NCBI GenBank assembly: GCA_003225175.1 | Contig: QIBA01000051.1 | Coordinates: forward strand, 1-63,480 | Length of the DNA: 63,480 nucleotides | Reading direction: 5' to 3' | Source: Acidobacteriota bacterium | GTDB lineage: Bacteria; Acidobacteriota; Terriglobia; Terriglobales; Acidobacteriaceae | Shown here: positions 46,788-63,022 of the stretch, piece by piece | Position numbering within the stretch: position 1 is the stretch's first letter | How the letters are laid out: each line of letters opens with the position of its first letter | Program-made: the position numbers and the translations under genes | The notes under the pieces: generated by a model | The model's input: the letters and a program-made list of their open reading frames with translations, nothing else | What the model was told of the DNA's origin: nothing | The model's database searches: none

Positions 46788-46900
46788 AGCACTCAGCACT
46801 CAGCTGTCAGCATTCAGCCGCTAAACTGCCTCGCCAAGTTAGAGTCATGCCGCCATGCAGTCAGCACTAGCTGAATGCGGAGTGCTGACGGCTGAATGCT
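46788..46900. repeat. Intercistronic inverted repeat, rpoA-rplQ
   Basis: Arm 46870-46900 (on the minus strand AGCATTCAGCCGTCAGCACT...) begins 2 bases after the rpoA stop; arm 46788-46817 is its imperfect inverse (AGCACTCAGCACTCAGCTG...). The words AGCATTCAGC and AGCACTCAGC repeat within each arm. Loop about 52 bases. Part of a set of six in this operon. Confidence 0.75.
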
Positions 46901-46902
46901 TT

Positions 46903-47970
46903 TTAGAACCCGCCTGCTGGTTCTTCCTCGTCGAGTTCGTCTTCCGGAGTGGAATACGCGCCGGCCAATACAGCCGCCGGTGGCTGGCTGGTTGGACCGG
47001 GAACCGCATTTCCGTGCTCGTCGATCTTCATTCCCAGACTGAGACCCATCTGGGCGAGGATTTCTTTGATCTCGTTCAACGACTTGCGTCCGAAGTTCTT
47101 CGTCTTCAGCATCTCGGCTTCGGATTTCTGAACCAGTTCGCCGATCGTCTGAATGTTAGCGTTCTTCAGGCAGTTGTAGCTGCGGACCGACAACTCCAGC
47201 TCTTCGACAGAGCGATTGAGATTTTCGTTGCGGATCTCTGGCTTGCGATCTTCTGCGCTTTCAGCCTCGTGCTCTTCCTCGAAGTTGATGAAGATGCTCA
47301 TGTGGTCCTTCACCAGCTTAGCCGCGAGACCGATCGCATCTGCGGGAACGACTGCGCCGTTGGTCCAGACTTCGAGAGTGAGCTTGTCGTAGTCCGTGAT
47401 CTGGCCCAGACGAGCCGCTTCTACCGTGTAGTTGCACTTACGAACGGGCGAATGTACTGAGTCGATCGGGATGAATCCCAATCCGAGGTCCTCGTCGAAA
47501 TTCTTATCTGCGGAGACATAGCCGCGTCCGCGCTTCAGACGCATTTCCATGTCGAGCTTTCCGCCTTCGCTCACTGTGGCGATGTAAATATCCTTGTCGA
47601 GGATCTCGACGTCGCCATCAGCTTCGATCATGCCGGAGGTGATCACGCCTGGCTGGTCGGTCTTCAGGTAGATCGCCTTGGGATTTTCGCTGTTTAACTT
47701 GAACGGAATCTGCTTGAGATTCAAGATGATGTCGGTGGCGTCTTCTACCACGCCGGGAATCGACTGAAATTCATGCAGAACGCCCTCGATGCGAACCGCG
47801 GTGATAGCCGCGCCTTCGATCGATGAGAGCAGAACGCGACGAAGCGCGTTTCCAATCGTGGTTCCGAAACCACGCTCAAACGGCTGCGCATAGAACTTGC
47901 CGTATTTATCAGTGAGCGTGTCGGTATCAGCGGCAAGCCGCTTTGGTTTTTGAAATCCCTTCCAGAGCAT
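46903..47970 (-). CDS. rpoA: RNA polymerase subunit alpha
   Basis: A 355-residue alpha subunit. The N-terminal domain (residues about 1-235) drives dimerisation and core assembly ([20 protein letters not shown]); the C-terminal domain (about 265-330: [33 protein letters not shown]) binds UP elements and activators. A Pro/Ala/Asp/Glu-rich tail extends beyond it. The opening [11 protein letters not shown] is like acidobacterial relatives. It sits in the alpha operon after rpsD, with inverted repeats in both flanking spacers. Confidence 0.98.
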
Positions 47971-48099
47971 GTCTTTGTCCTTTTCCTTTAATTCAGTGAG
48001 CTGAAGTTTCCTGCGCGGCTAATGGCGTCGCGAAGCATTCTGCAACGGCCGCGCCGATGTCCTTTCGCGTTGGTGGTTAGTCTCCGGTTTATCGCATCG

Positions 48100-48217
48100 G
48101 GCTGTCGGCGATCAGCTTTCGGCTTCGGCCAGTCAACCCAGATTGCTCAGTTCAACAACTCTTAGAAGCGCCGCTAAAAGTGATTGCCCGAACGCCGAGT
48201 GCCGATAGCGAACAGCC
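48100..48217. repeat. Intercistronic inverted repeat, rpsD-rpoA
   Basis: Arm 48182-48217 (minus strand GGCTGTTCGCTATCGGCACT...) begins 4 bases after the rpsD stop; arm 48100-48134 is its imperfect inverse with small bulges (roughly 80 per cent). The spacer of 251 bases has no gene; the remainder (47971-48099) shows no clear feature except the rpoA ribosome-binding region. Confidence 0.65.
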
Positions 48218-48221
48218 TCTC

Positions 48222-48851
48222 TTACTTCGAATACAACTCAACGATCAACTGTTCGTTGACCGGCAAATTGATGTCCTCGCGCTTCGGCAACGCAGTTACG
48301 CGCCCTTTGTAGTTGTCGCGATCGACTTCCAGCCAGTTCACTGCCGGCTGATGACTGGTGAATTCTTTCGACGTCTCAAGCACAGTCATCTTTTTGCTGT
48401 TGTCGCGCACTGCGATCTCTTCGCCGACCGCAACCTGGTACGAGGGGATGTTCACCTTGCGACTATTGACTGCTACGTGCCCGTGCCGAACCAACTGGCG
48501 AGCTTGGCGACGGGAAATCGCGAATCCTAGGCGATACACGACGTTGTCGAGGCGACGCTCAAGTTGTTCCAGCAGCTTTGCGCCGGTTACACCCTTGGAG
48601 CGCGCGGCCTTCTCAAAGTAGTTGCGGAACTGCTTTTCCAGCGTGAAGTAGATGCGCTTCGTCTTCTGCTTCTCGCGGAGCTGCAAGCCATAGCCAACTA
48701 CTTTGGCTTTGCGGTCTTTGCCATGTTGTCCAGGGGCGAAGTTGCGCTTCTCGACTGGGCACTTATCGCTAAAGCACTTCGTGCCCTTGAGAAATAACTT
48801 CATGCCTTCGCGTCGGCAAAGGCGGCAAACTGGTCCTTTATATCGTGCCAT
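48222..48851 (-). CDS. rpsD: Ribosomal protein S4
   Basis: A 209-residue 30S assembly protein that binds 16S rRNA first and can act as a translational repressor of the alpha operon in some bacteria. The N-terminus keeps the zinc-type cysteines (CRLC and two further Cys in [16 protein letters not shown]); the S4 RNA-binding domain is in [20 protein letters not shown] and VRHGHVAVN. Standard length. Spacers on both sides contain inverted repeats. Confidence 0.98.
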
Positions 48852-48917
48852 CGTTTCTCCAAACTTCGGATTATTGCGATCGGTTTACAGGCGGCACGCC
48901 CTTCCTCCCGATCAGAA

Positions 48918-49020
48918 AGCACTCAGCATTCAGCGGTCAGCATTCAGCCTCTGACCAGATCTTGCCGAGTAAGAAATCATTGTGTCCCCCATGCACTGCA
49001 TTGGCTGAATGCTGAGTGCT
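48918..49020. repeat. Intercistronic inverted repeat, rpsK-rpsD
   Basis: AGCACTCAGCATTCAGC at 48918-48934 is exactly inverted at 49004-49020, with additional partial copies (GTCAGCATTCAGCC) beside it. It begins about 20 bases after the rpsK stop in the 190-base spacer. Loop about 69 bases. Confidence 0.8.
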
Positions 49021-49041
49021 GACGGCTGGCTGCTCGCGTCG

Positions 49042-49479
49042 TCAGACGCGCCTCCGCTTCGGCGGACGGCATCCATTGTGCGGGATCGGCGTTACGTCGC
49101 GGATCACACGCACTTCCAGTCCGGCTGCCGCAAGGGCACGAATTGCCGACTCTCGTCCCGATCCGGGACCACTCACGCGAACATCCACGGATCGCATGCC
49201 GTGATCCCGCGCCTGATTGGCGGCGTTCATAGCGGCCTGTTGCGCCGCGAACGGAGTTCCTTTTCGGGAACCGCGGAAGCCGAGCGAGCCGGAGCTTTTC
49301 CACGACACCACCTTACCCTCAATATCCGAGATGGTGATGATCGTATTGTTGAAGGAGGCTTGAATGTGCGCCAATCCGAACGGGACATTCTTGCGCTCTT
49401 TCTTCTTAAACTGCTTCTTCTTGCCCTTTTTATCGGGCGCTGCTGCAGCGCCGCCTGTTGTTGCTGCCGGTTTCGCCAT
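49042..49479 (-). CDS. rpsK: Ribosomal protein S11
   Basis: A 145-residue 30S platform protein. The conserved part starts near residue 30 ([60 protein letters not shown]). Compared with the usual about 129 residues, the N-terminus carries an Ala/Gly/Lys-rich extension ([17 protein letters not shown]). Its ATG follows the rpsM stop by 2 bases. Confidence 0.98.
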
Positions 49480-49481
49480 GG

Positions 49482-49868
49482 TTATGTCTTAGCCGCCGCT
49501 TTCTTCTTGTTCGCCACTGTTCCTTTGCGTGGACCTTTCCGGGTACGGGCGTTGGTGTGTGTCCGCTGTCCGCGAACCGGGAGGTTACGACGATGACGGA
49601 ATCCACGATACGAGCCGATTTCGATCAGCCGCTTGATGTGCATCGAAACATCTTTGCGGAGGTCGCCTTCGACGTTGCCTTCGCTTTCGATGACTTGGCG
49701 GATGCGATTGACCTCGTCTTCGTTCAGGTCCTGCACCTTCTTGTCCGGATCGACTTTGGCTGCTGCCAGAATGCGCGCCGAACGCGGATTGCCGATTCCG
49801 TAAATATATGTCAGCGCGATGACCACGTGTTTATTGCGCGGAAGATCGACGCCTGCAATGCGTGCCAT
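49482..49868 (-). CDS. rpsM: Ribosomal protein S13
   Basis: A 128-residue 30S head protein contacting the 50S subunit and P-site tRNA. Canonical [60 protein letters not shown]. The C-terminal Lys-rich tail (NKKKAAAKT) that touches P-site tRNA is retained. Follows rpmJ by 9 bases. Confidence 0.98.
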
Positions 49869-49877
49869 ATGTGTTCC

Positions 49878-49991
49878 TTATCCCTGCCGCTGCTTATGCT
49901 TGGAGTTCTCGCAGATCACCCGCACCACGCCACGGCGATGGATGATCTTGCACTTATCGCAAATCTTCTTTACTGAGGCTCGTACCTTCAT
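49878..49991 (-). CDS. rpmJ: Ribosomal protein L36
   Basis: A 37-residue zinc-binding 50S protein, [20 protein letters not shown] then [17 protein letters not shown]. The ligands Cys11, Cys14, Cys27 and His32 are all present, so this is the zinc-containing (C+) form. It lies 21 bases after infA and 9 bases before rpsM, its usual place in the spc/alpha junction. It was found by translating the minus strand between these genes. Confidence 0.97.
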
Positions 49992-50012
49992 GATTCCTTA
50001 GCTCTATTCGGT

Positions 50013-50231
50013 TTACTTATACCGATAAACGATTCGGCCACGGTTCAAGTCGTAGGGGGAAAGCTCCACTGCTACACGGTCACCGGGCAAAATCTTGATG
50101 AAATTCTTGCGCATACGTCCGGAGACATGAGCGAGAACCTGATGCTTGTTCTCCAGCTCCACCCGGAACATTGCATTGGGCAGCGGTTCCAAGACTACTG
50201 CCATTACTTCAATCGCGTCTTCTTTGCTCAA
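50013..50231 (-). CDS. infA: Translation initiation factor IF-1
   Basis: A 72-residue single OB-fold factor that occupies the A site during initiation. [40 protein letters not shown] and [20 protein letters not shown] are diagnostic. Normal length. Located between map and rpmJ as in most bacteria. Confidence 0.98.
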
Positions 50232-50253
50232 TCGATCCTTAAGTATTCAGTTT

Positions 50254-51006
50254 CTATGCTGTCAAAATCACTGGGCCGTCTTTGGTTACAGCCACTGAGT
50301 GCTCAAAATGGGCACTCAAACTTCCATCAACAGTTACGGCGGTCCACTTATTATCGAGCAGCTTCGTGTCTGGCCTCCCGACATTCACCATCGGCTCGAT
50401 CGCCAAGACCATTCCTTCACGAAGTCGAGGCCCGTGTCCTCGCGTTCCGTAATTGGGAACCTGAGGTTCTTCGTGTAGCTTAGTACCGATTCCGTGTCCT
50501 ACGAACTCTCGAACCACGCTGAAGCCGTTGGCTTCCACCATTTCCTGTACCGCGGCGCCAACATCGCCGACTGTACTGCCGATCCGCGCCGTCTGGATCG
50601 CTCGCTCCAGCGAGGCCTTAGTCACTTCCAGCAGCTTCTTGATCTCCGGCCTAAGATGATTTCCTACCGGAACCGTCACCGCGGAGTCGGCGTAGTAACC
50701 ATCCAGAACCACGCCACAATCGATCGAGACGATATCACCTTCCTTTAGCACGCGCTTCGGGGAAGGAATACCGTGCACAATCTCCTGATTCACCGACGTG
50801 CACAGCACGCACGGATAATCGTAATAGCCCTTAAACGCCGGCTTGGCTCCCAGCTCCTCGATCTTGGCGGCGGCTACTGCCTCCAAGTCCATCGTCGTAA
50901 TGCCAGGCTTCACTGCTGCCACGGTTGCGTCGAGTACCTGACGAACGATGCGCCCACTGCGGCGCATCTTCTCAATCTCACCAGCCGACTTGCACATAAT
51001 GGCCAT
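50254..51006 (-). CDS. map: Methionine aminopeptidase, type I
   Basis: A 250-residue metalloenzyme removing the initiator Met. Metal ligands are visible in IDCGVVLDGYYADSAVTV (two Asp), VGHGIGTKLHEEP (His), LAIEPMVN (Glu) and the C-terminal EHSVAVT (Glu). The substrate His is in NQEIVHGIPS. Standard type I length, no zinc-finger extension. It follows secY after a 208-base spacer where adk is commonly found. Confidence 0.97.
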   Translation of the reverse strand: MAIMCKSAGEIEKMRRSGRIVRQVLDATVAAVKPGITTMDLEAVAAAKIEELGAKPAFKGYYDYPCVLCTSVNQEIVHGIPSPKRVLKEGDIVSIDCGVVLDGYYADSAVTVPVGNHLRPEIKKLLEVTKASLERAIQTARIGSTVGDVGAAVQEMVEANGFSVVREFVGHGIGTKLHEEPQVPNYGTRGHGPRLREGMVLAIEPMVNVGRPDTKLLDNKWTAVTVDGSLSAHFEHSVAVTKDGPVILTA

Positions 51007-51214
51007 CAGGCCACGCTCTCACAAAACACAGAATTCCGCACAGGCTCGTTTCCTCGTCGGAGAACGGCATCGGAACCTTCAGGCGTTAGATGAATCCGCC
51101 GGGGCGGACTGCCGAGGGCGGGACACGGACCACGTCCGGAGAGCCGTTGCAATATTTGATTATAACCGATGCACTTAGGACGCAGCCAGCTTCCGGCCAT
51201 CGGTTTCCAGCTAC

Positions 51215-52606
51215 TCACCATCGCCGCCCGCGAATCCGGCCACTCTTGGGAGTAAAGCCCTCATAGTGACGCATTACCAGCTGCGCCTCGATCTGATTCA
51301 CGGTATCCATCGCGACACCGACGACAATCAGCAAGGAAGTACCGCCAAAGTAGAACGTGACGCCCAAGCCGTTGGTAAACCATGTCGGAAAGCGCTCGAA
51401 GAAATTTCCCAGCACGCCGGGCAGGTGGTTCAGGTGGATGCCGCCGATCATCCACTGCGGAATGATCGAGACAATGCAGAGATAGAGGCCTCCCACCAGC
51501 GTGAGCCGGGTAAGGATGCTATTCACATATTCCTGCGTGCGCTTGCCGGGACGAATGCCGGGAACAAACCCACCATATCGCCGCATATCGTCGGCCACCC
51601 GGGCCGGATCAAAGATGATCGAGACGTAGAAATAAGCGAAAAAGATGATGCCGATAATGTACAGAAACTCGTACAGCGGCTCGCCGCCACGCAGCTGATC
51701 GAAAATCCAAGAAAATCCACGGGTGTTCTTGAAGTATTGCCCCAAAAATAAAGGCGCGCTGAGGATCGACGAGGCAAAGATCACCGGCATCACGCCGCCA
51801 GCATTCACGCGGAAAGGCATGTATGTACTTTGTCCGCCCATCATCTTCCGTCCGACGATGCGCTTTGCGTACTGCACCGGAATACGCCGTTCGCTGCGTT
51901 CAACGAAGACGATGAACGCGACCACCACGATCATTACTGCAATCAGCAGCACCATCGCTGGCACCGTAAAGCCGCCCCATGCTTGTGTCTTTACCTTCTC
52001 GTATAGGTCGGCAATGCCGCGCGGCAGTCCTACGACGATTCCGGCAAAGATCAGCAGCGACATTCCGTTTCCGATGCCACGTTCCGTAATCTGCTCGCCC
52101 AGCCACATGATGAAAGCTGTTCCAGCCGTTAGCGTGATGACCGTCATCAAGATGAACCCAGGACCTGGATTGGTGACAAACTGGACGCCGCCAGAATTCT
52201 TCTGCAGCGTGATAGCGATACCAAATGACTGCAGGGCACCGAGAACAACGGTGAGGTAGCGGGTCCACTGCGTGATTTTCTTGCGCCCGAGCTCCCCTTC
52301 CTTCTGCAGCTTCGCCAATGGTTCGTAGACGACGGTCAGCAACTGCAGAATGATCGATGCCGTGATATACGGCATGATGCCCAGGGCAAATATCGTCAGG
52401 CGGCGCAGGTTGCCGCCGCTAAACAGGTCCACAAAGCCGAGCACGGTTCCACGCTGCTGGTCGAAGAACTGGGACAGCAGATCCGCATTAATACCAGGCG
52501 TAGGAATGTGACCACCCAGACGATAGACAGCCAGCATCGCCAAGGCGAACAGAACACGCGTCCGAAGATCCGGGACGCGAAAGATGTTCGCTAACTTCTC
52601 AAACAT
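51215..52606 (-). CDS. secY: Preprotein translocase subunit SecY
   Basis: A 463-residue channel protein with ten membrane helices. MFEKLANIFRVPDLRTRVLF, YRLGGHIPTPGIN, YITASIILQLLTVVYEPLAK and PVQYAKRIVG are characteristic; RYGGFVPGIRPGKRTQEYV is the conserved cytosolic loop that contacts SecA and the ribosome. It forms the SecYEG channel in the inner membrane. Starts 14 bases after the rplO stop. Confidence 0.98.
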   Translation of the reverse strand: MFEKLANIFRVPDLRTRVLFALAMLAVYRLGGHIPTPGINADLLSQFFDQQRGTVLGFVDLFSGGNLRRLTIFALGIMPYITASIILQLLTVVYEPLAKLQKEGELGRKKITQWTRYLTVVLGALQSFGIAITLQKNSGGVQFVTNPGPGFILMTVITLTAGTAFIMWLGEQITERGIGNGMSLLIFAGIVVGLPRGIADLYEKVKTQAWGGFTVPAMVLLIAVMIVVVAFIVFVERSERRIPVQYAKRIVGRKMMGGQSTYMPFRVNAGGVMPVIFASSILSAPLFLGQYFKNTRGFSWIFDQLRGGEPLYEFLYIIGIIFFAYFYVSIIFDPARVADDMRRYGGFVPGIRPGKRTQEYVNSILTRLTLVGGLYLCIVSIIPQWMIGGIHLNHLPGVLGNFFERFPTWFTNGLGVTFYFGGTSLLIVVGVAMDTVNQIEAQLVMRHYEGFTPKSGRIRGRRW

Positions 52607-52620
52607 AGTGGACCAACTTC

Positions 52621-53064
52621 TTAAGCACCGCCGATGATTTCTGCCTTGCCGCCGGCTTTGGTGATTTTTTCCTGGGCAGACTTCGAGAACTTATGAGCCT
52701 GCACGTTAACCTTCTTCTTCAGTTCGCCATCACCCAGAACTTTGACCAGGGCGCCGTCCTTAACCAAACCGGCTTTGACCAGCGTTTCGAGCGTCACATC
52801 GCCTTCACCAAGTGAGGCAATCCGGTCGATGTTCAGGACCGTGTATTCGGTCCTGAAAATATTAGTAAAGCCGCGCTTGGGTAAACGACGGTGGAGCGGC
52901 ATCTGACCGCCTTCAAAGCCACGCATCATGCGCGACCCAGAGCGGGAGCGCTGTCCTTTGTGTCCGCGGGTCGAGGTCTTACCCATCCCCGAACCCATGC
53001 CGCGTCCGACACGCTTCTTGTTCGAATTCGCCTTCTTGGGCGCTCGCAAATTGGAAAGATTCAT
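52621..53064 (-). CDS. rplO: Ribosomal protein L15
   Basis: A 147-residue 50S assembly protein. The Gly/Arg/Lys-rich N-terminus ([40 protein letters not shown]) and the C-terminal [16 protein letters not shown] region are typical. The spacer upstream (to rpmD) holds a dispersed palindrome. Followed by secY. Confidence 0.98.
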
Positions 53065-53086
53065 AGTGTTCTCTTACTGCATGGCG

Positions 53087-53109
53087 GAAACGCAGCATGC
53101 TGCGTCTCT
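53087..53109. repeat. GACGCAGCATGCTGCGTC palindrome in the spc operon
   Basis: GAAACGCAGCATGCTGCGTC followed by TCT lies in the 58-base spacer between rpmD and rplO, immediately upstream of the rplO ribosome-binding region. The same word is found at 16436, 20267, 21196, 37267 and 46149. Confidence 0.8.
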
Positions 53110-53122
53110 ACTTTGCTGCTGA

Positions 53123-53338
53123 TTACTGAACAAACTCAAGCAGGTGCGGAATCTTCTTCACCATTCCACGAATCGACGGCGTATCTTCCCGTTCGACTAC
53201 TTGGTTCAGGCGTGTAAATCCCAAGCCCTTGACGATTTTCTTATGCTTCACCGGCGAGGCAATGTACGACCGCACCCAGCGGATACGCACCGTTCCCTTT
53301 GCCCCTGACTTCTGAGAGCTAGCTTTTTTCTCTGCCAT
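53123..53338 (-). CDS. rpmD: Ribosomal protein L30
   Basis: A 71-residue 50S protein. The conserved part is VRIRWVRSYIASPVKHKKIV, KGLGFTRLNQVVERED and IRGMVKKIPHLLEFV. A short Lys/Ser-rich N-terminus makes it about 10 residues longer than usual. The frame is open to 53413 within rpsE, but the ATG at 53338 (MAEKKASSQKS) with AGGAG upstream is the likely start. It lies 4 bases after the rpsE stop. Confidence 0.95.
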   Translation of the reverse strand: MAEKKASSQKSGAKGTVRIRWVRSYIASPVKHKKIVKGLGFTRLNQVVEREDTPSIRGMVKKIPHLLEFVQ

Positions 53339-53342
53339 CTGT

Positions 53343-53855
53343 CTACAGCTCCTGGGCGGTCTTGCCGCGAAGGGCGGCCACTTCCGCCCGATCACGAAGC
53401 TTGCCGAGTGCATCGAAGGTGGCTTTGATCACATTGTGCGGATTCGCCGTGCCCAGCGACTTCGTGAGCACGTTCTGCACTCCTGCCGAAGTCATCACCG
53501 CACGCACTGCACCGCCGGCGATCACGCCGGTTCCTTCCGGAGCCGGCTTCAGAAGAACATGTCCCGAACCGAAGCGTCCGAGCACCGCGTGCGGGACCGT
53601 CGTCTGCGTGAGGTTCACCTTAATCAGGTTCTTCTTCGCTGACTCGATACCCTTGCGGATGGCCTGCGGAACTTCCTTGGCTTTGCCGGAACCATAGCCC
53701 ACTACTCCGGCGGCCGGATCTCCAACGACTACCAACGCGGCAAACGACAGGTTCTTGCCGCCCTTAACTACCTTCGTAACGCGATTGATGGCGACGACCT
53801 GGTCCTTAAGCTGAAACTGACCAGCATCGATTCTCTTCTTTGCGGTTGCTGCCAT
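53343..53855 (-). CDS. rpsE: Ribosomal protein S5
   Basis: A 170-residue 30S protein involved in decoding accuracy. [40 protein letters not shown] and [20 protein letters not shown] are family patterns. The frame extends to 53891 inside rplR, but the ATG at 53855 lies just after the rplR stop, has GGAG upstream and gives [13 protein letters not shown], so it is preferred. Confidence 0.97.
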
Positions 53856-53859
53856 TCGT

Positions 53860-54231
53860 TTAAAACTCCAATCCTGCTTCGCGCGCGGCATCAGCGAGAG
53901 CCTTGATGCGTCCGTGGTACAGATAGCCGCCGCGGTCGAAGACTACCTTCTTGATACCTTTTTCCTGTGCCCGCTGCGCGACCAGCTTGCCAATTTCCTT
54001 GGCCGACGCGAGATTGCCACCAGTCTTTTTCTTGCTTTTCCCTTCCTTACCGCTTGCCGTGGAGGCAGACACCAAGGTGACACCGCTGCCGTCGTCAATC
54101 ACTTGCGCATAGATGTGATTCAGCGAGCGGTAAATGTTCAGGCGGGGACGCGCATCGCTTCCCTGAAGCGCCTTACGGATTCGCGTGTGAACCCGTCGCC
54201 GTACTGCATCTTTTGAAATCTGGGGAATCAT
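53860..54231 (-). CDS. rplR: Ribosomal protein L18
   Basis: A 123-residue 5S rRNA-binding protein. [40 protein letters not shown] and [20 protein letters not shown] match the family. A Lys-rich insertion ([12 protein letters not shown]) sits in the middle. It follows rplF with a 69-base spacer. Confidence 0.97.
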
Positions 54232-54300
54232 GTTTTTCTATTGCAGCATCTTCGCCGCTGCATCCTTTCCTTCGCAGAACACCCTGGTTCCGCGATGAAG

Positions 54301-55301: not shown

Positions 55302-55378
55302 TCTTATCTCCTCTTATCGTTTCGCGTTAGCCCCGGTCTGCCCGGGAACCGGTCCGAAACGTACTGCAGTGAGCACCC

Positions 55379-55449
55379 GGCTTTCGGCACTCAGCCTTTG
55401 GCCTAAACCATCATGGGCTCGACCGGCCGAACGCTGAGTGCCGAAAGCC
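55379..55449. repeat. Intercistronic inverted repeat, rpsN-rpsH
   Basis: Arms 55379-55403 (GGCTTTCGGCACTCAGCC...) and 55425-55449 pair at 23 of 25 positions with a 21-base loop. On the transcript the first arm begins 4 bases after the rpsN stop. This is the most compact of the six elements. Confidence 0.85.
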
Positions 55450-55453
55450 TCTT

Positions 55454-55678
55454 TTACCAGGACGACTTGGAGACGCCTGGAATTTCGCCGCGAAGAGCGA
55501 GTCCGCGGAAGCACAGGCGGCACACGCCGAACTTGCGCAGGTACGCGCGTGGCCGTCCGCACAGCTTGCAGCGGTTATGTCTGCGGGTTGAAAACTTGGG
55601 TAGCGCACCTTTGCTGCCGCGCGCCTGCTCAAACTTTTTCTCGATCTTCGCGTCCTTCACTCGTTTTGCTGTGGTCAT
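55454..55678 (-). CDS. rpsN: Ribosomal protein S14, zinc-binding type
   Basis: A 74-residue S14 of the zinc-containing (Z) type: [20 protein letters not shown] supplies the four cysteines, then [18 protein letters not shown]. The usual type Z length is 61; the extra about 13 residues are N-terminal ([20 protein letters not shown]). Located between rplE and rpsH as expected. A 152-base spacer follows. Confidence 0.97.
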
Positions 55679-55719
55679 GCAATCCTTAGAAATTTCAGAA
55701 CTAACTACTGGTAACTTCG

Positions 55720-56265
55720 TTATGCAGCGCGGAACGGCATTCCGAAGCTGCGCAGCAGTGCGCGGGCTTCGTTGTCGTTCTTGGCCGTTGTCACGATGGT
55801 GACATTCATCCCTTTGAGTTTGTCCACCTTCGCGTAATCAATCTCTGGGAAGATCAACTGATCTCGCAGTCCAAGCGTGTAGTTGCCGCGCCCGTCGAAG
55901 GACTTCGTCGATACTCCGCGGAAATCGCGCACGCGAGGCAGCACGACATTGATGAGACGGTCGAGGAACTCGTACATCCGATCACCCCGCAGAGTGACCA
56001 TGGCGCCAATCGGCATCCCTTCGCGAACCTTGAATGCGGCGATCGACTTCTTCGCCTTCGTGACTACCGGCTTCTGTCCAGTGATCTGGCCAAGTTCGCC
56101 AACAGCGGGATCGAGGACCTTCGCGTTCTGCGTAGCCTCTCCGACTCCCATGTTCACAACGATCTTGTGCAAACGCGGAACCGCCATCGGATTCTTCAGC
56201 GACAGTTCTTTCTGGAGCGCCGGAGCGATGTCTTTGTGAAATCTCTCTCGTAATCTCGCACTCAT
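55720..56265 (-). CDS. rplE: Ribosomal protein L5
   Basis: A 181-residue 5S rRNA-binding protein of the central protuberance. [60 protein letters not shown] and [20 protein letters not shown] are conserved. Follows rplX by 3 bases. Confidence 0.98.
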
Positions 56266-56268
56266 GGC

Positions 56269-56598
56269 TTAACTCTTCTCCAGCGTGGTCTTGCAGCGTT
56301 TGCAAACGCGCACGCTTTTGTCGCCGTGCCGCTCATGGCCAGCCCGCACTGGGCCACAACTCGGACAGACGAGCTTTACGTTCGAGATTGCGATCGGGCT
56401 CTCCTGCTCGGCGATGCCACCCTTGATATTCTTCTGCGGATTCGGCCGAACGTTCTTCTTCACCATCATTACGTGCTCAACGAGCACGCGGGCCGTATCG
56501 GGAAACACGCGCAACACACGCCCTTCTTTGCCTTTGTCTCGACCGGCAATGATCTTTACCTGATCATTGCGGCGGATGTCATAAGTTTTCTGCATCAT
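56269..56598 (-). CDS. rplX: Ribosomal protein L24
   Basis: A 109-residue 50S assembly-initiating protein with a KOW motif (RRNDQVKIIAGRDKGKEGRV). VEHVMMVKKNVRPNPQKNIK and the C-terminal CPSCGPVRAGHERHGDKSVR, VCKRC add a zinc-ribbon-like set of four Cys. The frame opens with TTG at 56604; the ATG at 56598 is more likely, with GAGAGAG upstream. Confidence 0.96.
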   Translation of the reverse strand: MMQKTYDIRRNDQVKIIAGRDKGKEGRVLRVFPDTARVLVEHVMMVKKNVRPNPQKNIKGGIAEQESPIAISNVKLVCPSCGPVRAGHERHGDKSVRVCKRCKTTLEKS

Positions 56599-56623
56599 CG
56601 TCAAACTCTCTCAACCAGCTTGC

Positions 56624-56995
56624 CTAGAGAACCTCTGGGGCAAGCGAAACAATCTTCAAAAACTTCTTCTCACGCAGCTCCCGGGCGACAGGACCAAAGA
56701 CACGCGTCCCAATCGGCTCGCCGGCTTCGTTGATCAGTACTGCTGCATTCTGGTCAAAGCGGATGTAGGTGCCATCACGTCGCCGCGATTCCTTGCGCAT
56801 CCGCACAACGACGGCCTTCACTACGGTTCCCTTTTTTGCCGTGCCATCCGGCGATGCTTCTTTCACTGCAGCGGTGATGATGTCACCCAATCCGGCACTT
56901 AAACCGCTCGATCCACCCAGGGGCAGAATCATCTGCAACTTACGCGCGCCGGAGTTATCGGCAACTTCCAACATGCTTCGCATCATTACGGCCAT
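56624..56995 (-). CDS. rplN: Ribosomal protein L14
   Basis: A 123-residue 50S protein at the subunit interface. [40 protein letters not shown] and [20 protein letters not shown] are highly conserved. GAGGAGAAA precedes the ATG. It lies between rpsQ and rplX. Confidence 0.98.
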
Positions 56996-57025
56996 AATCT
57001 TTTTCTCCTCGTCTGCGAAGTAACC

Positions 57026-57349
57026 CTAACTCGCCTGCTCGATCTTTTCCGCACCAGGCACGATCGCAGCTCGCTGAATGATCTCAGCAAGACGCCACCG
57101 CTTCAGCTTGGACAAAGGACGAGTCTCGACGATCCGCACAACATCCCCGGTACGAGCGCTGTTCTCTTCATCATGCGCGTAGAACTTCTTGGATTTCGCA
57201 ATGACGCGCTTGTATTTCGCGTGTGACTTGCGCATCTCCACCTCTACCACAACCGTCTTCGCCATCTTGGTGGAGGTTACGTAACCGATCTTTTCATTCC
57301 GGTGCGAATCCGTCTTCTGCGTCTTTGCTCCGGTTGCCTGTTCAGCCAT
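57026..57349 (-). CDS. rpsQ: Ribosomal protein S17
   Basis: A 107-residue 30S OB-fold protein. [40 protein letters not shown] and [20 protein letters not shown] are conserved. N-terminal ([16 protein letters not shown]) and C-terminal extensions make it longer than the usual 84-88. Follows rpmC by 41 bases. Confidence 0.97.
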
Positions 57350-57390
57350 TCAAAATCTCCTTCATCCCGCTCGAGCGGGAGCGCGAAGAA

Positions 57391-57777
57391 CTATCGCTTC
57401 GCCTTACTTTTCTTTGCTGCGGCCTTTTTCTTCGGCGCAGAAGCCTTCTTTGCAGCGGCTGACTTCTTCTTTGCGACAGCTCTCGAGGACTTCTTGCCCG
57501 GCGGCTCCTTCGTAGCTGCTGCAGGAGCCGCTTCCTGCGTCGGGCTTGCCGTGGCAGTGGCGGCGTTGCTCACGCGAGTATTGTCGATTCCCAATTCGCG
57601 CTCGCGTGCGATCGTCTTGATGCGTGCCAAATCCTTGCGCAACTCGCGCATTTTCTTCACGCCGGTCGTCTGTCCCATTTTGAGCTGAAACTTCAGGCGA
57701 AAGAGCTGATCAGCCGCATCGCGCTGCTGATGCGCAAGCTCGTCAGGACCAAGATTTCTGATCTTCTCAATGTTCAT
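57391..57777 (-). CDS. rpmC: Ribosomal protein L29 with long Lys/Ala-rich tail
   Basis: The first about 65 residues are canonical L29 (NLGPDELAHQQRDAADQLFR, LKFQLKMGQTTGVKKMRELR, KDLARIKTIARERE), a two-helix 50S protein at the tunnel exit where SRP and trigger factor bind. Residues about 70-128 form an unusual tail: a Thr/Ala/Pro-rich linker, then histone-H1-like Lys/Ala repeats (AKKKSAAAKKASAPKKKAAA). Twice the usual length. Confidence 0.96.
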   Translation of the reverse strand: MNIEKIRNLGPDELAHQQRDAADQLFRLKFQLKMGQTTGVKKMRELRKDLARIKTIARERELGIDNTRVSNAATATASPTQEAAPAAATKEPPGKKSSRAVAKKKSAAAKKASAPKKKAAAKKSKAKR

Positions 57778-57779
57778 TT

Positions 57780-58193
57780 CTAGTGTCCTTCGCGTGCAAC
57801 AAACTTGGTCTTTAGCGGGAGCTTGTGCGATGCTAGCCGCATCGCTTCCTGCGCATCGGTCTGACTTACCCCTTCCATCTCAAAGAGGATCTTTCCCGGG
57901 CGAACCACGGCTACCCAATGATCCGGCGCTCCTTTGCCCTTACCCATACGGGTTTCGGCAGGCTTCTTGGTTACGGGCTTATCAGGAAACAATCGCAGCC
58001 AAACTTTGCCGCCACGCTTCACGAACCGAGTCATGGCCACACGGCTTGCTTCGATCTGGCGGTCAGTAATGTAACCGCATTCCAGGACCTTGAGTCCGTA
58101 ATCACCGAAAGAGAGCTGCGAACCCCGCCATGCTTTTCCGGCCATGCGCCCGCGCTGCGTCTTGCGGTACTTAACTTTTTTCGGCATCAACAT
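57780..58193 (-). CDS. rplP: Ribosomal protein L16
   Basis: A 137-residue 50S protein near the peptidyl-transferase centre. [60 protein letters not shown] and [20 protein letters not shown] are diagnostic. Starts 28 bases after rpsC; stop 2 bases before the rpmC start. Confidence 0.98.
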
Positions 58194-58221
58194 AGAAATC
58201 CGTTTCCCAATCTTTTAATTA

Positions 58222-58884
58222 CTAGAACCCCGTAGCTACCTGCGGCTCGCGCTTCTTCTGCGCGAGAATTTCGCCTTTGTAAATCCACGTCTTTACACCG
58301 ATCACGCCGTACGTTGTGCGGGCTTCGCTGAAACCATATTCAATGTCCGCACGCAGCGTGTGCAGCGGAAGACGTCCCTGCAGATACCATTCGGAACGGG
58401 CGATTTCGTTTCCGTTCAAACGTCCGGAGACGCGAACCTTAATTCCCTTGCAACCAAAGCGCAGAGCGGAATCCACAGACTTGCGCATCGCGCGGCGGAA
58501 GCCAACGCGCTTCTCGAGCTGGAGTGCGATCGACTCAGAAACCAACTGAGCATCGAGCTCCGGCTTATGCACTTCCTGAATGTCGACAAAGACATCTCGG
58601 TTCGTCCGCTTCTGCAGCTCAACCTTTAGCTTGTCGATCTCGGCGCCTTTGCGTCCAATGATGATTCCGGGACGCGCGGTCTTGATGATGATCCGCAGTT
58701 TGTTTCCCGGACGCTCGATCTCAATCGCGCTCACGCCCGCAGACTTGAGCTTGTCCTTTAGCTCCGCCTTCAGCTTCACGTCTTCGAGGAGAAGCTTGTC
58801 GTAGTCCCGCTCAACGAACCAGCGCGACTTCCACGGTTTGGTGTAGCCGAGCCGAAATCCGTAGGGATGTACCTTCTGACCCAT
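58222..58884 (-). CDS. rpsC: Ribosomal protein S3
   Basis: A 220-residue 30S protein at the mRNA entry site, with an N-terminal KH domain. [40 protein letters not shown] (KH GxxG loop) and [31 protein letters not shown] are canonical. Its ATG lies 2 bases after the rplV stop. Confidence 0.98.
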
Positions 58885-58886
58885 AG

Positions 58887-59372
58887 TTATCCTTTCGCCG
58901 TTGCTTTCTTCGAGGCGGTCTTCTTTTTTGCGGCTTTGCCGGGCGTGCGCTTCTTGGTAGTCGCGCTCTTCTCACCTACTACGGTCGCAGCACCGGCACT
59001 TTCTGCGCGAAGCCGTTCCGCAAGAGCGATTTCAATGTGTGCCATGCGGCGCTGGTAGCGATATGCCCTTCCCATCGGAGCCGGACGGATACGTTTCATG
59101 CGAGGACCATCGTTGGCGATCGCCCGCTTCACATAGAGCTGATCGACATCGACATCCAGACCCTTCTCCTGCCCAAGATAGTTCGCGTTCTCGACCGCGG
59201 AGCGCAGCAGCTTCTCGATCGAGGGAGCGATTCCCTTTTTGGTAAAAGCAAGCGTATTCATCGCATCTTCCACGCGACGGCCTTTAATCAGATCCAAAAC
59301 CAAGCGTACCTTCTGCGGCGAGACACGCTGAAAGCGGGCTTCTGCTCGAAATTCCTGTTCAGCAAAATTCAT
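58887..59372 (-). CDS. rplV: Ribosomal protein L22 with basic tail
   Basis: A 161-residue 50S protein lining the exit tunnel. [40 protein letters not shown] and the tunnel loop region [20 protein letters not shown] are canonical and complete by about residue 118. The last 43 residues form a Lys/Ala/Thr-rich tail ([16 protein letters not shown]) similar in composition to that of L29. Confidence 0.97.
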
Positions 59373-59385
59373 ATTCGTCTCTCCG

Positions 59386-59700
59386 TTATTTCGCCGGTGC
59401 TGGCGCTGGAGCCGGCTTGGCTGCAGTCTCCGTTGCCGCTGCCTTTACCGAGTGACCTTTGAAGTTGCGCGTCTGGCTGAATTCACCCAACTTGTGTCCG
59501 ACCATGTTCTCGGAGATGTACACGGGAATAAACTTGCGGCCGTTGTGCACTGCGATCGTGTGTCCAACCATGTCGGGATGGATCGTCGAGCGGCGCGACC
59601 AAGTGCGTACAACCTTCTTGTCGTTGGCCCGGTTCATCGTTTCGATCTTGACCATCAGGTGCTCGTCAATAAACGGCCCCTTCTTTGTGCTTCTCGCCAT
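59386..59700 (-). CDS. rpsS: Ribosomal protein S19
   Basis: A 104-residue 30S head protein. [40 protein letters not shown] and [20 protein letters not shown] are canonical. A C-terminal Ala/Pro-rich tail ([15 protein letters not shown]) adds about 12 residues beyond the usual 92. Lies between rplB and rplV. Confidence 0.97.
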
Positions 59701-59706
59701 AAAACC

Positions 59707-60531
59707 TTATTTCCCTCTGCGGCTCACAATGAATTTGTCGGTCCGCTTGTTATTGCGCGTCTTGTAACCGCGAGTCGGCTGTCCCCAAGGCGTAACCGGA
59801 TGACGTCCGCCGGAGGTCTTTCCTTCACCACCGCCATGGGGATGGTCGACTGGGTTCATCGCCACACCGCGGTTTACTGGACGGCGTCCCAACCATCGCT
59901 TACGACCAGCCTTACCGATCGCGACGTTCTCATGGTCGGTATTCCCAACTTGGCCCACAGTCGCCATGCAATCCATCAGCACCTTGCGCGTCTCACCGGA
60001 AGGAAGCTTCAGCGACGCATAATCGCCTTCCTTCGCCACTAGTTGCGCAGCCCCGCCAGCCGAGCGAACCATCTGCGCGCCCTTGCCGGGCTTCAGCTCG
60101 ATGTTGTGCACCGTCGTACCGGCGGGAATGTTGCGCAGTGGAAGCGCGTTGCCCACCAGGATGTCGGCGTCAGGCCCGCTGACGATCTTCTGTCCAACCT
60201 GCAATCCCACGGGCTGCAGGATGTAACGCTTCTCGCCATCTGCGTACGACAGCAGCGCGATGCGCGCCGAACGATTGGGATCGTATTCAATCGACGTTAC
60301 CGTCGCGGGAATACCATCCTTATCGCGCTTGAAGTCGATGATGCGAATCTTGCGCTTGTGTCCTCCGCCACGATGCCAGCTCGTCAAATCGCCGGAATTG
60401 CGGCGGCCGCCCGTGCGCAGCTTGATCTCGGTCAGCGGCTTGTGCGGACGATCGGTCGTGATCTCGTCGTTGACCAGCGTCGTCTTAAATCGTAACGACG
60501 GAGTCAGCGGTCTGTATGTCTTAATCGGCAT
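59707..60531 (-). CDS. rplB: Ribosomal protein L2
   Basis: A 274-residue 50S protein needed for peptidyl-transferase activity and subunit association. [42 protein letters not shown]-like [20 protein letters not shown] and [20 protein letters not shown] include the conserved catalytic-site His. Preceded by a 202-base spacer that contains an inverted repeat, unusual in the S10 operon. Confidence 0.98.
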
Positions 60532-60570
60532 TGGTTATAACTCTCAGCCGGGGCATTGCCCCAATTACTG

Positions 60571-60727
60571 AATCGGGTGATCGGATGATCGGATGATCGG
60601 GTGAAGTAACTGCAATTGTTTACTTCGCCGAAACCCTAGCACCGACTCGCGCCGATCTTTGTTTTCCGGGCGCGTCACCTGGTGGGTCTTACTTCGCACG
60701 ATCACCCGATGACTCGATCACCCGATT
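60571..60727. repeat. Intercistronic inverted repeat built of 8-base units, rplW-rplB
   Basis: Each arm (60571-60609 and 60689-60727, 33 of 39 paired) is made of tandem 8-mers: CGATCATC, CGATCATC, CGATCACC then CGATT on the complement of the first arm; the second reads CGATCACC, CGATGACT, CGATCACC, CGATT. Loop about 79 bases. The element starts 7 bases after the rplW stop. Confidence 0.85.
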
Positions 60728-60733
60728 TCTTTC

Positions 60734-61075
60734 TTACGCGTTGTCCGCGTATTCGGGCATCTTCTCGCCCACTTTCAATCGAACGTACGCTTTTTTCCAG
60801 TCCGGACGATGTCCTGCAAAACGTCCGCGGCGCCGCTCCTTACCGTGAAAATTCGCAGTACGGACGGTATCGACCTTGACCTTGAACACTTGCTGTACAG
60901 CGTTCCGGATCTCGGTCTTCGTAGCTTTCGCGGCAACTTCAAATACGAGCTGGCCGGAGGTCGCTTCTTTCTTTCGCGGACTCTTGTCCTTCGCAGCCTT
61001 CGGATCGAATTCCTTGGCGCGCTCAGCCTTTTCCGTGATCACGGGCCTGCGGATGATTTGATATGCAGATTTCAT
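60734..61075 (-). CDS. rplW: Ribosomal protein L23
   Basis: A 113-residue 50S tunnel-exit protein, the docking site for trigger factor. YQIIRRPVITEKAERAKEFD, LVFEVAAKATKTEIRNAVQQ, VFKVKVDTVRTANFHGKERR are conserved. A charged insertion (DPKAAKDKSPRKKEATSG, about residues 24-41) lengthens it. The ATG overlaps the rplD stop by 1 base. Confidence 0.97.
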   Translation of the reverse strand: MKSAYQIIRRPVITEKAERAKEFDPKAAKDKSPRKKEATSGQLVFEVAAKATKTEIRNAVQQVFKVKVDTVRTANFHGKERRRGRFAGHRPDWKKAYVRLKVGEKMPEYADNA

Positions 61076-61749
61076 TAGGCCACCTCCGCCTTCTGCCGCT
61101 TGGAGACGGCCTTCTTCAGCGTCTCCTGCAACTGCTCAATCGCAGGCCGCGAGAAGATCGCACGATCATAACGAAGCAGGTGATACGGATGTACTTCCGA
61201 ACCAGACACCAGCTCTACGCCGTCGAGATTCCGCGCACTCAGGTACAGATTGCGATCATGCTCCCGGGTGTCAGAGTTCACGTTCGCGACAATCAAAGAA
61301 GTTTTCTCAACGCCCAGCGTGTCCAATGCTTCGCGCAAGTCTTTCGTCTTGCCCGACAGCGAGTCGAGACCATCAACCACGGTCAGCTTGCCATCAGAGA
61401 ACTTTGTCGCCAGAGCCGAACGCAATGCTCCGAGCAGTTTCTTTTTAGGAAACGCGAAATCGTAGCTTCGCGGCTGAGGTCCGTGGACCGTGCCACCGTG
61501 ACGCCAGAGAGGCGAACGAATCGAGCCAACACGCGCCCGGCCAGTTCCCTTCTGCTTCCACAGCTTTCTGCCTGCGCCGGAGACGAGCTTCTTATTCTTG
61601 GTCGCGTGGGTACCCGCGCGCTGAGCTGCGCGGTAATGCGTGACCGCCTCCCAGATCAGGTCTTCATTGATCGTGCCGAAGACCTCGTCTGCCAGCTCGA
61701 AGCTGCCGACTTTCTTGCCCTTCAGATCTACAATGTCAATCTTTGCCAT
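61075..61749 (-). CDS. rplD: Ribosomal protein L4
   Basis: A 224-residue 50S protein lining the tunnel and, in E. coli, the S10 operon repressor. Key segments are YRAAQRAGTHATKNKKLVSG, KLWKQKGTGRARVGSIRSPL, WRHGGTVHGPQPRSYDFAFP and LSARNLDGVELVSGSEVHPY. Starts 2 bases after the rplC stop. Confidence 0.98.
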   Translation of the reverse strand: MAKIDIVDLKGKKVGSFELADEVFGTINEDLIWEAVTHYRAAQRAGTHATKNKKLVSGAGRKLWKQKGTGRARVGSIRSPLWRHGGTVHGPQPRSYDFAFPKKKLLGALRSALATKFSDGKLTVVDGLDSLSGKTKDLREALDTLGVEKTSLIVANVNSDTREHDRNLYLSARNLDGVELVSGSEVHPYHLLRYDRAIFSRPAIEQLQETLKKAVSKRQKAEVA

Positions 61750-61751
61750 GG

Positions 61752-62522
61752 TTATTTCTTGGCCTTTCCGGCAGCGGCTTTCTTCGCAGCCTTCAACGGA
61801 TCGACCGTTTGCGCGCCTGCAAATCCACGACGCTCACGCGGCGCCTGCTTGGCCTTATTGATGACTACGTATCCGCCTTTGGGACCAGGTACCGCGCCTT
61901 CGACCATCAACAGATTTTCTTCAAGGTCGATCCCGAGAATGCGCAGATTGCGGACCGTGCACTGCTCGACGCCCATATGACCAGACATGCGCTGTCCGGG
62001 GAAGGTTCGCGATGGGAACGACGATGCGCCGATTGAGCCCTGCACCTGGAACATGTGTCCGTGTGACTTTGGACCACCGCCGAAATGATGTCGACGAACG
62101 ACGCCGGCAAATCCGCGTCCTTTGCTGGTTCCGGTCACATCGACGAATTTTTCATCCTGGAAGATATCGACCAAAACCTTGTCCCCGACCTTCACCTGAC
62201 CGTTGCTCTCCGCCGCCGGATTCTCACCCTTCGCTTGCTTCTCACCCGCTTCAACCGGAGTTGTAACGGCGACTTCCTTCATGAACTTCACCGGCGGTAG
62301 ATTGTGCTTCCCGAAATGGCCCTGCATCGCCTTCGTGACGCGCTTGCCTTTCACGAACTCGACGAGACCAATCTGAACCGCGTCGTATCCGTCACGGGCA
62401 GCGTTCTTGCGCTGGGTGATCACGCACGGACCAGCCTGCAGCACCGTGATCGGGCGAACCTCACTCCTATCATCGAAGAGCTGCGTCATGCCGACTTTTT
62501 TTCCTAAAATTCCGGAAACCAT
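61752..62522 (-). CDS. rplC: Ribosomal protein L3
   Basis: A 256-residue 50S protein that reaches the peptidyl-transferase centre. [40 protein letters not shown] and [30 protein letters not shown] are canonical. Longer than the usual about 210 through an insertion near residues 90-108 ([18 protein letters not shown]) and a Lys/Ala-rich C-terminus. Confidence 0.98.
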
Positions 62523-62582
62523 TTTTTCTTCTTCTCCTCATCATCCCTTCAAGGGACTGTAGGCTCTCTCGCGAGAGTTTCT

Positions 62583-62900
62583 CTAACTTCCAAATGCCTT
62601 GATCTCGACGTCCACGCCGGCCGGAAGATCGAGCTTCATCAGCGCATCAACCGTCTGCTGTGTGGGATCCAGGATGTCGAGCAGCCGTTTGTGCGTGCGG
62701 ATCTCAAAAGCTTCCCGAGACTTCTTGTCGACGTGCGGCGAACGCAGCACACAGTACTTATTCTTAATCGTTGGCAACGGAATCGGTCCCGCTACCTGCG
62801 CTCCGGTGCGACGCGCGGTTTCCACGATCTCACCAGTCGACTGGTCAAGAACGCGATAGTCGTAAGCCTTCAACCGGATGCGTATTCTCTGTCCTACCAT
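62583..62900 (-). CDS. rpsJ: Ribosomal protein S10
   Basis: A 105-residue 30S head protein that also acts as NusE in antitermination. [40 protein letters not shown] and [20 protein letters not shown] are conserved. The frame is open to 62960, but the ATG at 62900 ([14 protein letters not shown]) has GAGAGA upstream and is the normal start. First gene after tuf, with an inverted repeat in the spacer. Confidence 0.98.
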
Positions 62901-62960
62901 TTGTTGTCTCTCAAAGATCTGCTGCGGTCGGTTTGCCGCTGCGGTCAAAAAAGTTCTCAA

Positions 62961-63005
62961 TTTTCAGTAATTAGTTGTCACTGAATGAAAACTGATTACT
63001 GAATA
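62961..63005. repeat. Intercistronic inverted repeat, tuf-rpsJ
   Basis: TTTCAGTAATTAGTT (62962-62976) pairs with AACTGATTACTGAAT (62990-63004) at 13 or 14 of 15 positions, loop 13 bases. On the transcript it follows the tuf stop by about 18 bases. AT-rich, unlike the other five elements, but the same layout. Confidence 0.75.
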
Positions 63006-63022
63006 CTCGTTTCTGCACTTGC

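Follow-up and report, generated by a model that had tools for sequence, protein, structure and literature searches.

Inverted repeats in ribosomal-operon spacers of an Acidobacteriota genome are dispersed tandem-word elements with probable gene-bearing relatives

Introduction

The described bacterial repeats closest to the elements reported here are the paired sites of Geobacter metallireducens, the intervening sequences (IVSs) of 23S rRNA, the heptamer stems of a Nostoc tRNA intron, the heptamer arrays of Beggiatoaceae, and the REPIN-RAYT systems (doublets of repetitive extragenic palindromic sequences, REPs, and their REP-associated tyrosine transposases). We compared with them the inverted repeats in six spacers of the ribosomal protein gene cluster in a 63,480-nt stretch of DNA from an Acidobacteriota bacterium (GenBank GCA_003225175.1, contig QIBA01000051.1, positions 1 to 63,480), which as a whole is called the window. 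An earlier note on this DNA had taken the repeats either for post-transcriptional elements or for sites targeted by a repeat-inserting process. We observed that they are not particular to ribosomal genes but are copies of short dispersed DNA elements, and the data point to a gene-bearing, full-length form of such elements. The cited reports were available in part, and the comparisons hold for those parts.

In G. metallireducens, arrays of the octamer GTTGCTYN, of TCTCCGTS[Y] and of the heptamer MTYCTGA are paired on opposite strands (PMC2700814). These putative global regulator sites (classes 1–3) resemble our elements in being tandem 7–9-nt words in opposite-strand, intergenic pairs; classes 1 and 2 also show a variable distance within the pair, and the class 2 word resembles the CACGGAG words found here, whereas the other words differ (PMC2700814). 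They were read as possible IHF/HU sites, and the available part of the report describes no link to the four-helix-bundle (4HB) or GxxExxY genes considered below (PMC2700814). The elements of this study are likewise inverted pairs of tandem 7–9-mers, at variable distance and mostly intergenic.

The 23S rRNA IVS, described as a selfish element, contains inverted repeats and an open reading frame (ORF) for a 4HB protein (S23p), which is immediately preceded by tandem heptamers (PMC4990558). Its site is the 23S rRNA, from which RNase III removes it, whereas the spacer copies here are without an ORF and lie between protein genes (PMC4990558). Full-length relatives of our elements do have a 4HB ORF between inverted repeats with tandem heptamers.

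Heptamer repeats of cyanobacteria are known as STRR (short tandemly repeated repetitive) sequences. The P6b stems of the Nostoc tRNALeu(UAA) intron are built from degenerate heptamers, NNTGAGT (five fixed and two free positions) or TDNGATT, and one motif class has repeatedly replaced the other at the same site, as we find here; unlike our elements, they occupy a single intron locus, and no gene link is described in the available text (PMC4476775). Heptamer arrays are dispersed in Beggiatoaceae as well, where the TAACTGA repeats are mostly intergenic and some lie within ribosomal protein operons, but they are direct rather than inverted and stand just upstream of start codons (PMC4679880). REPIN-RAYT systems share with our elements the many inverted doublets, the diverse spacer and a gene flanked by the same ends (PMC8049555, PMC3733652); there, according to the accessible portions of these reports, palindromic REPs go with a Y1 transposase, and here tandem words go with a 4HB or GxxExxY gene. 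Our elements have inverted ends around a diverse spacer, and among 27 Y1 loci tested no Y1 gene flanked by those ends was found. The operon elements also carry terminal inverted repeats, as miniature inverted-repeat transposable elements (MITEs) do. A literature search of titles and abstract openings, with most subscription papers outside it and PF13366/GxxExxY not searched by name, returned no link between PF05635 or PF13366 genes and dispersed word arrays.

Results and discussion

The spacer repeats are copies of elements dispersed through the genome

The genome, here called G000, comprises 5.73 Mb in 268 contigs, of which the window is contig C51. The tuf-S10-spc-alpha gene cluster of the window occupies about 46237–63472 on the minus strand (gene names were assigned from reading of the proteins). 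Inverted repeats had been reported in six spacers, just after the upstream stop codon. Our repeat search recovered five of them, all read on the minus strand and all beginning 1–21 nt past the stop. The rplW-rplB element (arms 60571–60609 and 60689–60727, 39 nt, loop 79 nt) consists of inward arrays of the octamer ATCGGGTG. Inward TCAGCnn heptamer arrays make up the elements in rpsK-rpsD (48918–48949 and 49003–49034, 32 nt, loop 53 nt) and rpoA-rplQ (46787–46818 and 46870–46901, 32 nt, loop 51 nt), and TCGGCnn/TCAGCnn arrays that in rpsN-rpsH (55379–55403 and 55425–55449, 25 nt, loop 21 nt). The tuf-rpsJ element (62963–62980 and 62986–63003, 18 nt, loop 5 nt) is better taken, from comparison with the same-genus genome G001, as degenerate TCAGTnn heptamers. 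The sixth spacer, rpsD-rpoA, contains two weak inward TCRGCnn arrays 70 nt apart (48105–48205, minus strand) with no ungapped inverted repeat at the lowest threshold, and for this spacer the claim did not stand. The words said to recur between spacers were borne out as TCAGC/TCGGC heptamers, along with the ATCGGGTG octamer of rplW-rplB, but the remaining spacers are not, as had been written, only a few bases long: secY-map measures 208 nt, infA-rpsM 144 nt, and rpsJ-rplC, rplF-rplR, rpsH-rplF and rpmD-rplO 58–69 nt. The six spacer copies are without an ORF, and all lie between ribosomal protein genes, outside 23S rRNA.

Similar repeats were found throughout the genome. In an 826-kb sample of G000, all 44 repeats with a score of at least 15 were intergenic, and neither the coding DNA nor one shuffle contained any. 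At a score of at least 13, 1.63 Mb of G000 yielded 112 intergenic repeats against 1 in one shuffle (coding, 7 against 5), and 0.82 Mb of G001 yielded 87 against 1 (coding, 2 against 5). Co-directional and convergent spacers contained 4.4–4.7 elements per 10 kb, divergent spacers 2.25. The sampled stretches were non-random, some having been picked for a word match and the remaining contigs for having come up in earlier searches, and these densities may therefore be inflated; the difference between coding and intergenic DNA does not suffer from this. In 97 co-directional spacers the repeat stood at a median of 22 nt after the upstream stop and 53 nt before the downstream start (p = 2e-5).

The repeats of G000 and G001 belong to many word families, among them TCAGCnn/TCGGCnn, TTAGCnn, ATCGGGTG, GATTTCGT, ACACGGAGG and TTCACTGTTAA. 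A strict periodicity rule was satisfied by 38 of 199 arms, with period 7 in 18, period 8 in 14, and periods 9 and 11 in three each. The arrays are strongly polar: among pairs up to 250 nt apart (11 word patterns; G000, G001 and 19 operons), 75 were inward, 4 outward and 15 direct, and for TCRGCnn alone the numbers were 37, 2 and 1, where the orientation label of a word was fixed after the elements had been seen but the consistency within a word was not. Loops, which our repeat finder could follow up to about 130 nt, were mostly unique in the TCRGCnn family; 23 of 27 had nothing in common with another loop and four shared a part, and none had a second place in the 2.44 Mb searched (E ≤ 1e-6). 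The GTCATCC and TTCACTGTTAA families of G000 share loops more widely and are separate from the word arrays. Elements also nest, a TCGGCnn element and a GTCATCC element being found within ATCGGGTG arms.

At G000 C63:23650–24350 (L290), two adjoining ATCGGGTG elements have near-identical loops, each with a nested TCGGCnn element, a case of local duplication combined with nesting.

Orthologous spacers carry different words

The same operon was compared, whole or in part, in 20 relatives. At rpsK-rpsD, G000 has TCAGCnn words. Its relative G004, with an RpoA 99% identical to that of G000, has CTAGC-type words there, and in G001 and G003 the spacer contains a GTCATTYCGA repeat. G000 and G004 have the rpoA-rplQ element in common, but with different loops. 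The rplW-rplB spacer is 202 nt in G000 and 78–87 nt in G001, G003 and G005. In some cases spacers of 2–6 nt in G000 reach 81–140 nt in relatives: in G003, rplP-rpmC (2 nt in G000) measures 140 nt with a GTTTCnn repeat, and rplB-rpsS (6 nt in G000) 86 nt with GATTTCGN words. Since orthologous spacers carry other words or differ in length, the elements appear to have been inserted or replaced lineage by lineage. Over the small overlap between G000 and G001 (163 orthologs, 123 adjacent pairs), a repeat was present in both genomes at 7 conserved gene pairs, in G000 only at 8, in G001 only at 14, and in neither at 94.

The second proposal of the earlier note, a repeat-inserting process with target sites, is supported by these observations: the repeats are genome-wide and intergenic, belong to many word families, differ in word between orthologous spacers, and represent extra DNA where the counterpart spacer has 2–6 nt.

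The word and its polarity, rather than RNA pairing, are conserved

The first proposal was that the repeats act post-transcriptionally, as processing sites or in stoichiometry control. In this case the stems, for instance RNase III sites, would be selected as RNA hairpins. Folding of each spacer against 200 dinucleotide shuffles lent this partial support, with z scores of −6.9 for rplW-rplB, −5.7 for rpsN-rpsH, −3.5 for rpoA-rplQ and −2.6 for rpsK-rpsD, but only −1.5 for tuf-rpsJ and −1.3 for rpsD-rpoA. Three of six other spacers of the operon, all below the inverted-repeat threshold, also beat their shuffles (rplF-rplR −3.9, rpmD-rplO −3.1, rpsJ-rplC −2.8), so that folding alone is no mark of the repeat spacers. 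The position of elements nearer to the stop than to the start codon and their depletion in divergent spacers also speak for RNA hairpins; yet elements do occur in divergent spacers, and convergent spacers are as dense as co-directional ones.

On the transcribed strand, G.U mismatches were not significantly in excess of A.C mismatches (75 versus 64, p = 0.40), and in the arms of the 4HB genes described below the ratio was 53 to 82 (p = 0.016), the opposite of what selection on the sense RNA should produce. In 36 TCRGCnn elements the free positions of one arm did not covary with those of the other (match 0.264 versus 0.230 permuted, p = 0.26). Small sets leaned towards a match between arms, in favour of hairpins, though not significantly (TTAGC, 0.381 versus 0.216, p = 0.07, 7 elements; GTTTC, 0.633 versus 0.484, p = 0.17, 5 elements). 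As the TCRGCnn free positions lack covariation and G.U is no commoner than A.C, RNA pairing is not the conserved trait; for the commonest word, what is conserved is the word and its polarity. The search for compensatory changes across related genomes, suggested in the earlier note, thus had a negative outcome, with different words at orthologous spacers and no arm covariation for TCRGCnn. Nor did the spacer elements show the conserved structure at orthologous sites and the compensatory changes of a ribosomal-protein autoregulatory leader. Taken together, selection of the stems as RNA hairpins is very unlikely, although an incidental effect of the elements on the mRNA is possible. Inverted repeats in a ribosomal operon can therefore be passing residents and not regulators, which calls for caution in searches for RNA structures.

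A conserved, polar word with no sign of selection for pairing is also what one would expect of protein-binding sites. Our arrays share their anatomy with the Geobacter pairs (PMC2700814, as far as the available text goes), and, as was proposed there, a DNA-bending or nucleoid protein with a global regulatory role could bind them, the 4HB protein perhaps being that regulator and not a mobiliser. Regulatory sites would hardly turn over so fast between genomes with 95–99% identical RpoA, nest in one another, or comprise many unrelated words per genome, and we consider this explanation unlikely.

Two leader regions of the operon are conserved among relatives. Directly upstream of rpsD (48852–48915, minus strand), a short hairpin with a GTAAACC-GATC end is kept in most of the 20 relatives, with two-sided standard changes in 6 of 8 consensus pairs; it is a candidate ribosomal-protein leader with no Rfam match at gathering score. 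An Rfam scan of the window returned no family at gathering score. Upstream of rpoA (about 47971–48075, minus strand), members of the genus and some relatives share the strongly conserved block ATCGGCGCGGCCGTTGCAAAATGCTTCGCGACG...; the alignment was too mixed to yield a consensus structure.

Genes for 4HB and GxxExxY proteins often lie between inverted arms

Prompted by the 23S rRNA IVS protein, we searched 41 genomes for PF05635 and found it in 30, with some coordinates coinciding with word positions already found. The protein is the four helix bundle protein TIGR02436. The first three 4HB genes of G000, inspected by eye, all lie between inward arrays, of three different words. In 20 further loci of relatives, inverted flanks with z > 4 were present at 18, and the other two show tandem words by eye; such flanks were seen at 8 of the 300 small genes used as controls, which had not been screened for 4HB. 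Among 4HB loci from named genomes (80 fetched, 77 testable), 57 exceeded z > 4 and 40 exceeded z > 6. This set covers Acidobacteriota, Planctomycetota, Chloroflexota, Verrucomicrobiota, Bacteroidota, Cyanobacteriota, Nitrospirota, Gemmatimonadota, proteobacterial lineages, candidate phyla and archaeal metagenome-assembled genomes (MAGs), with neither of the two archaeal loci passing z > 4. The left arms of the 57 had a period of 6–9 at a self-match of at least 65% in 34 cases, and some period at a self-match of at least 60% in 41. Inverted arms were present at 4 of 6 loci on cyanobacterial plasmids, and a search of phage records for 4HB gave no match. The Coxiella IVS report of tandem heptamers beside an S23p ORF with inverted repeats, in its available part, fits this link between gene and arrays (PMC4990558).

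For word analysis, we retained the 52 of 97 4HB loci that had a usable protein and arms with z > 4 and a length of at most 75 nt. Their left arms were periodic in 36, with period 7 in 29, period 8 in 6 and period 9 in 1, and a median of 4.5 units. Arms of period 7 have about five near-invariant positions and two that vary, a contrast exaggerated by the sorting of positions by conservation. Five chains are present in each of the two solved homologues, 2gsc and 2rld, and a Xanthomonas homologue is described as a homopentamer in the accessible part of PMC4990558.

On plasmid pPg_01 of Pseudanabaena galeata (L294), a 4HB gene stands between cas6 and cas4 and is flanked by GCTAAAA-type arrays with at least 10 heptamers on each side. 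An identity of the 4HB protein with Avd of diversity-generating retroelements was rejected, the protein of locus L194 scoring 23.5 bits against the NF033474 cut-off of 80.

A scan of 910 predicted genes (80–300 amino acids) found 11 bracketed by inverted repeats, comprising one 4HB, two Y1 transposase (the second, on G001 C102, recognised by its position), three GxxExxY and five other genes; it missed two further 4HB genes in the same DNA, one of them broken. GxxExxY is PF13366/TIGR04256, of the PD-(D/E)XK superfamily. In G000 and G001, the arms at five of six GxxExxY loci are built from 8/9-nt words, one of them the ATTGAACACGGAGG word of G000. On plasmids, arms with z > 4 were present at 4 of 8 loci; the neighbours were, for example, radA and a FAD protein gene where arms were present, and fabD and fabG where clear arms were lacking. 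No GxxExxY gene was confirmed in the viral contigs searched.

The Y1 genes deserve separate consideration, as the words might be REP sequences moved by the RAYT-type transposases of G000. Inverted conserved ends around a diverse spacer are the REPIN layout (PMC8049555, in its available part), Y1 matches are present in 33 of the 41 genomes, with 10 in G000, and at one place, G000 C71, Y1 genes stand amid TCAGCnn words. The Y1 gene there is flanked by palindromic REPs of its own, however, and although 22 of 27 Y1 loci have inverted arms, none of the 22 reaches the periodicity threshold. The TCAGCnn, TCAGTnn and ATCGGGTG words are tandem and non-palindromic and lack the GTAG or CGTC tag (as defined in the available text of PMC3733652), and no transposase was seen inside word arms. 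We therefore rejected RAYT as the mobiliser; of all the explanations weighed here, this one appears the least probable.

Arm words and genes

Three of six tested arm words were confined, among the 41 genomes, to the one whose 4HB gene bears that word. These are GGTNTTAGG (at least two in tandem; GGTNTTAGGTNTTAGG) in G011, with 17 matches at 12 sites; GGTTGCTGG (at least two in tandem; GGTTGCTGGTTGCTGG) in G039, with 12 matches at 9 sites; and ATTAGGC (at least two in tandem; ATTAGGCATTAGGCA) in G013, with 9 matches at 4 sites. In each case one of the sites is the 4HB gene. Over the 52 loci, nearest neighbours by 4HB protein had words in common, with a mean cosine of 0.185 against 0.042 at random (maximum 0.091 of 2000 draws), and protein distance correlated with word distance (Mantel rho 0.10, p 0.01), to which shared descent contributes. 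The 4HB genes of G009, from the family of the window's genome, and of a Phycisphaerae MAG are 60% identical and both have GTTCTC/GTTGTC words. Of 73 operon repeats, 30 matched some 4HB arm, compared with a mean of 21.75 and a maximum of 27 for shuffled arms.

These data bear on whether any mobiliser is needed, as slippage and template switching at hairpins might generate the arrays where they stand, with the enclosed small genes as passengers. Tandem words are typical of slippage, most TCRGCnn loops are unique, and an ordinary ORF can be bracketed. In-place origin does not readily account for one word at 4 to dozens of sites per genome and its absence from most relatives, for the same two gene families inside arms across phyla, against 8 of 300 control genes, or for the four TCRGCnn loops with a part in common, as expected of copies. 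We regard it as highly improbable, a shade more so than selection of RNA hairpins.

We propose, with a probability of about 0.65, that the spacer repeats are gene-less copies of elements whose full-length form bears one small gene between like arrays. In each element, a short word would be repeated in tandem in two inward arrays, and the DNA between them, up to about 130 nt, would be mostly unique. The word often has 7 nt, about five of them fixed and two free, and 8–9 nt in some families. The full-length form would carry either the 4HB gene (PF05635), mostly with 7-nt words, or the GxxExxY gene (PF13366), with 8/9-nt words. By analogy with REPIN-RAYT, the protein from a gene-bearing copy may bind the word arrays as DNA, the 4HB protein perhaps as a pentamer with roughly one subunit per word, and may, together with host enzymes, copy doublets into other intergenic positions. 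Where ribosomal genes are packed as tightly as in this operon, insertions would be tolerated in the spacers, just past the stop codon.

Several observations weigh against this proposal. The other three arm words tested are wider and extend beyond the genomes in which the corresponding 4HB gene is known, with GTTTCnn x3 in 16, GTTCTC x3 in 4 and GGGNACAGG x2 in 10 of the 41 genomes. Operon words match the 4HB arms of their own genome no more than those of other genomes (p = 0.29, with 1–4 known arms per genome). The number of operon repeats per spacer rises with that of PF05635 matches (rho 0.53, p 0.027, 17 operons), but this correlation omits four partial operons, including that of G002, where 12 PF05635 matches go with 18 repeat-free spacers. 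Among the 100 listed of 112 matches in G000, ATCGGGTG arrays are near none of its four 4HB genes. At G000 C42:200–1200 (L287), ATCGGGTG arms surround an ordinary 177-amino-acid ORF, and the few places read inside ATCGGGTG arms had no gene in common, holding only this one ORF and nested elements. Flanks with z > 4 were lacking at 20 of 77 named-genome and 2 of 6 plasmid 4HB loci, and 23 of the 57 loci that passed are weakly or not periodic. No empty orthologous site was found for three G000 4HB genes, the G001 stretches sampled having no homologous region. We infer by analogy that the protein binds the words, that each word takes one subunit, and that the protein moves the elements.

If gene-less copies of gene-bearing elements are the right description, PF05635 and PF13366, widespread families without known function in the models and literature consulted, would have a testable role at arrays of their own word. 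A broader and more tentative reading, which we think somewhat less probable than not, is that IVSs, Nostoc P6b stems, Geobacter sites, cyanobacterial heptamers and the ribosomal spacers form one transposase-less selfish class in many phyla, in which a pentameric 4HB protein, or the sister GxxExxY protein, would recognise 4–5 words per arm, about one per subunit, and drive the copying of gene-bearing and gene-less doublets. Each protein lineage would have its own word, which would explain why words turn over at the same spacers. Repeats described separately as IVS heptamers, Geobacter paired sites and Nostoc P6b stems would then be united, and, if the protein moves the arrays, they would represent a class of bacterial mobile elements without a recognised transposase. 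The data thus hint at an overlooked kind of selfish DNA.

Other features of the window and of G000

The secY-map spacer (51007–51214) is 140–298 nt within the genus and about 720–880 nt in the other relatives measured. This gap in length suggests that a gene may have been lost or moved in the genus, perhaps adk, to judge by the usual gene order. Outside the operon, the window contains GTCATCCTGAGG...CGAAGGATC inverted repeats at 4038–4212 and 13094–13254, with loops alike between the copies, a MITE-like family distinct from the word arrays. Further paired REP-like palindromes, GTTCCGGCCGCCTCGGCCGG, GCTTCAGCCGTGCC and GGCACGGATNNNATCCGTGCC, were found at 17347–17518, 26131–26261 and 38589–38723. 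Elsewhere in G000, at C30:111994–112809 and its flanks (L030), a ParA-like gene stands between two TGTTCCACGTGGAACA palindromes, which resemble parS partition sites.

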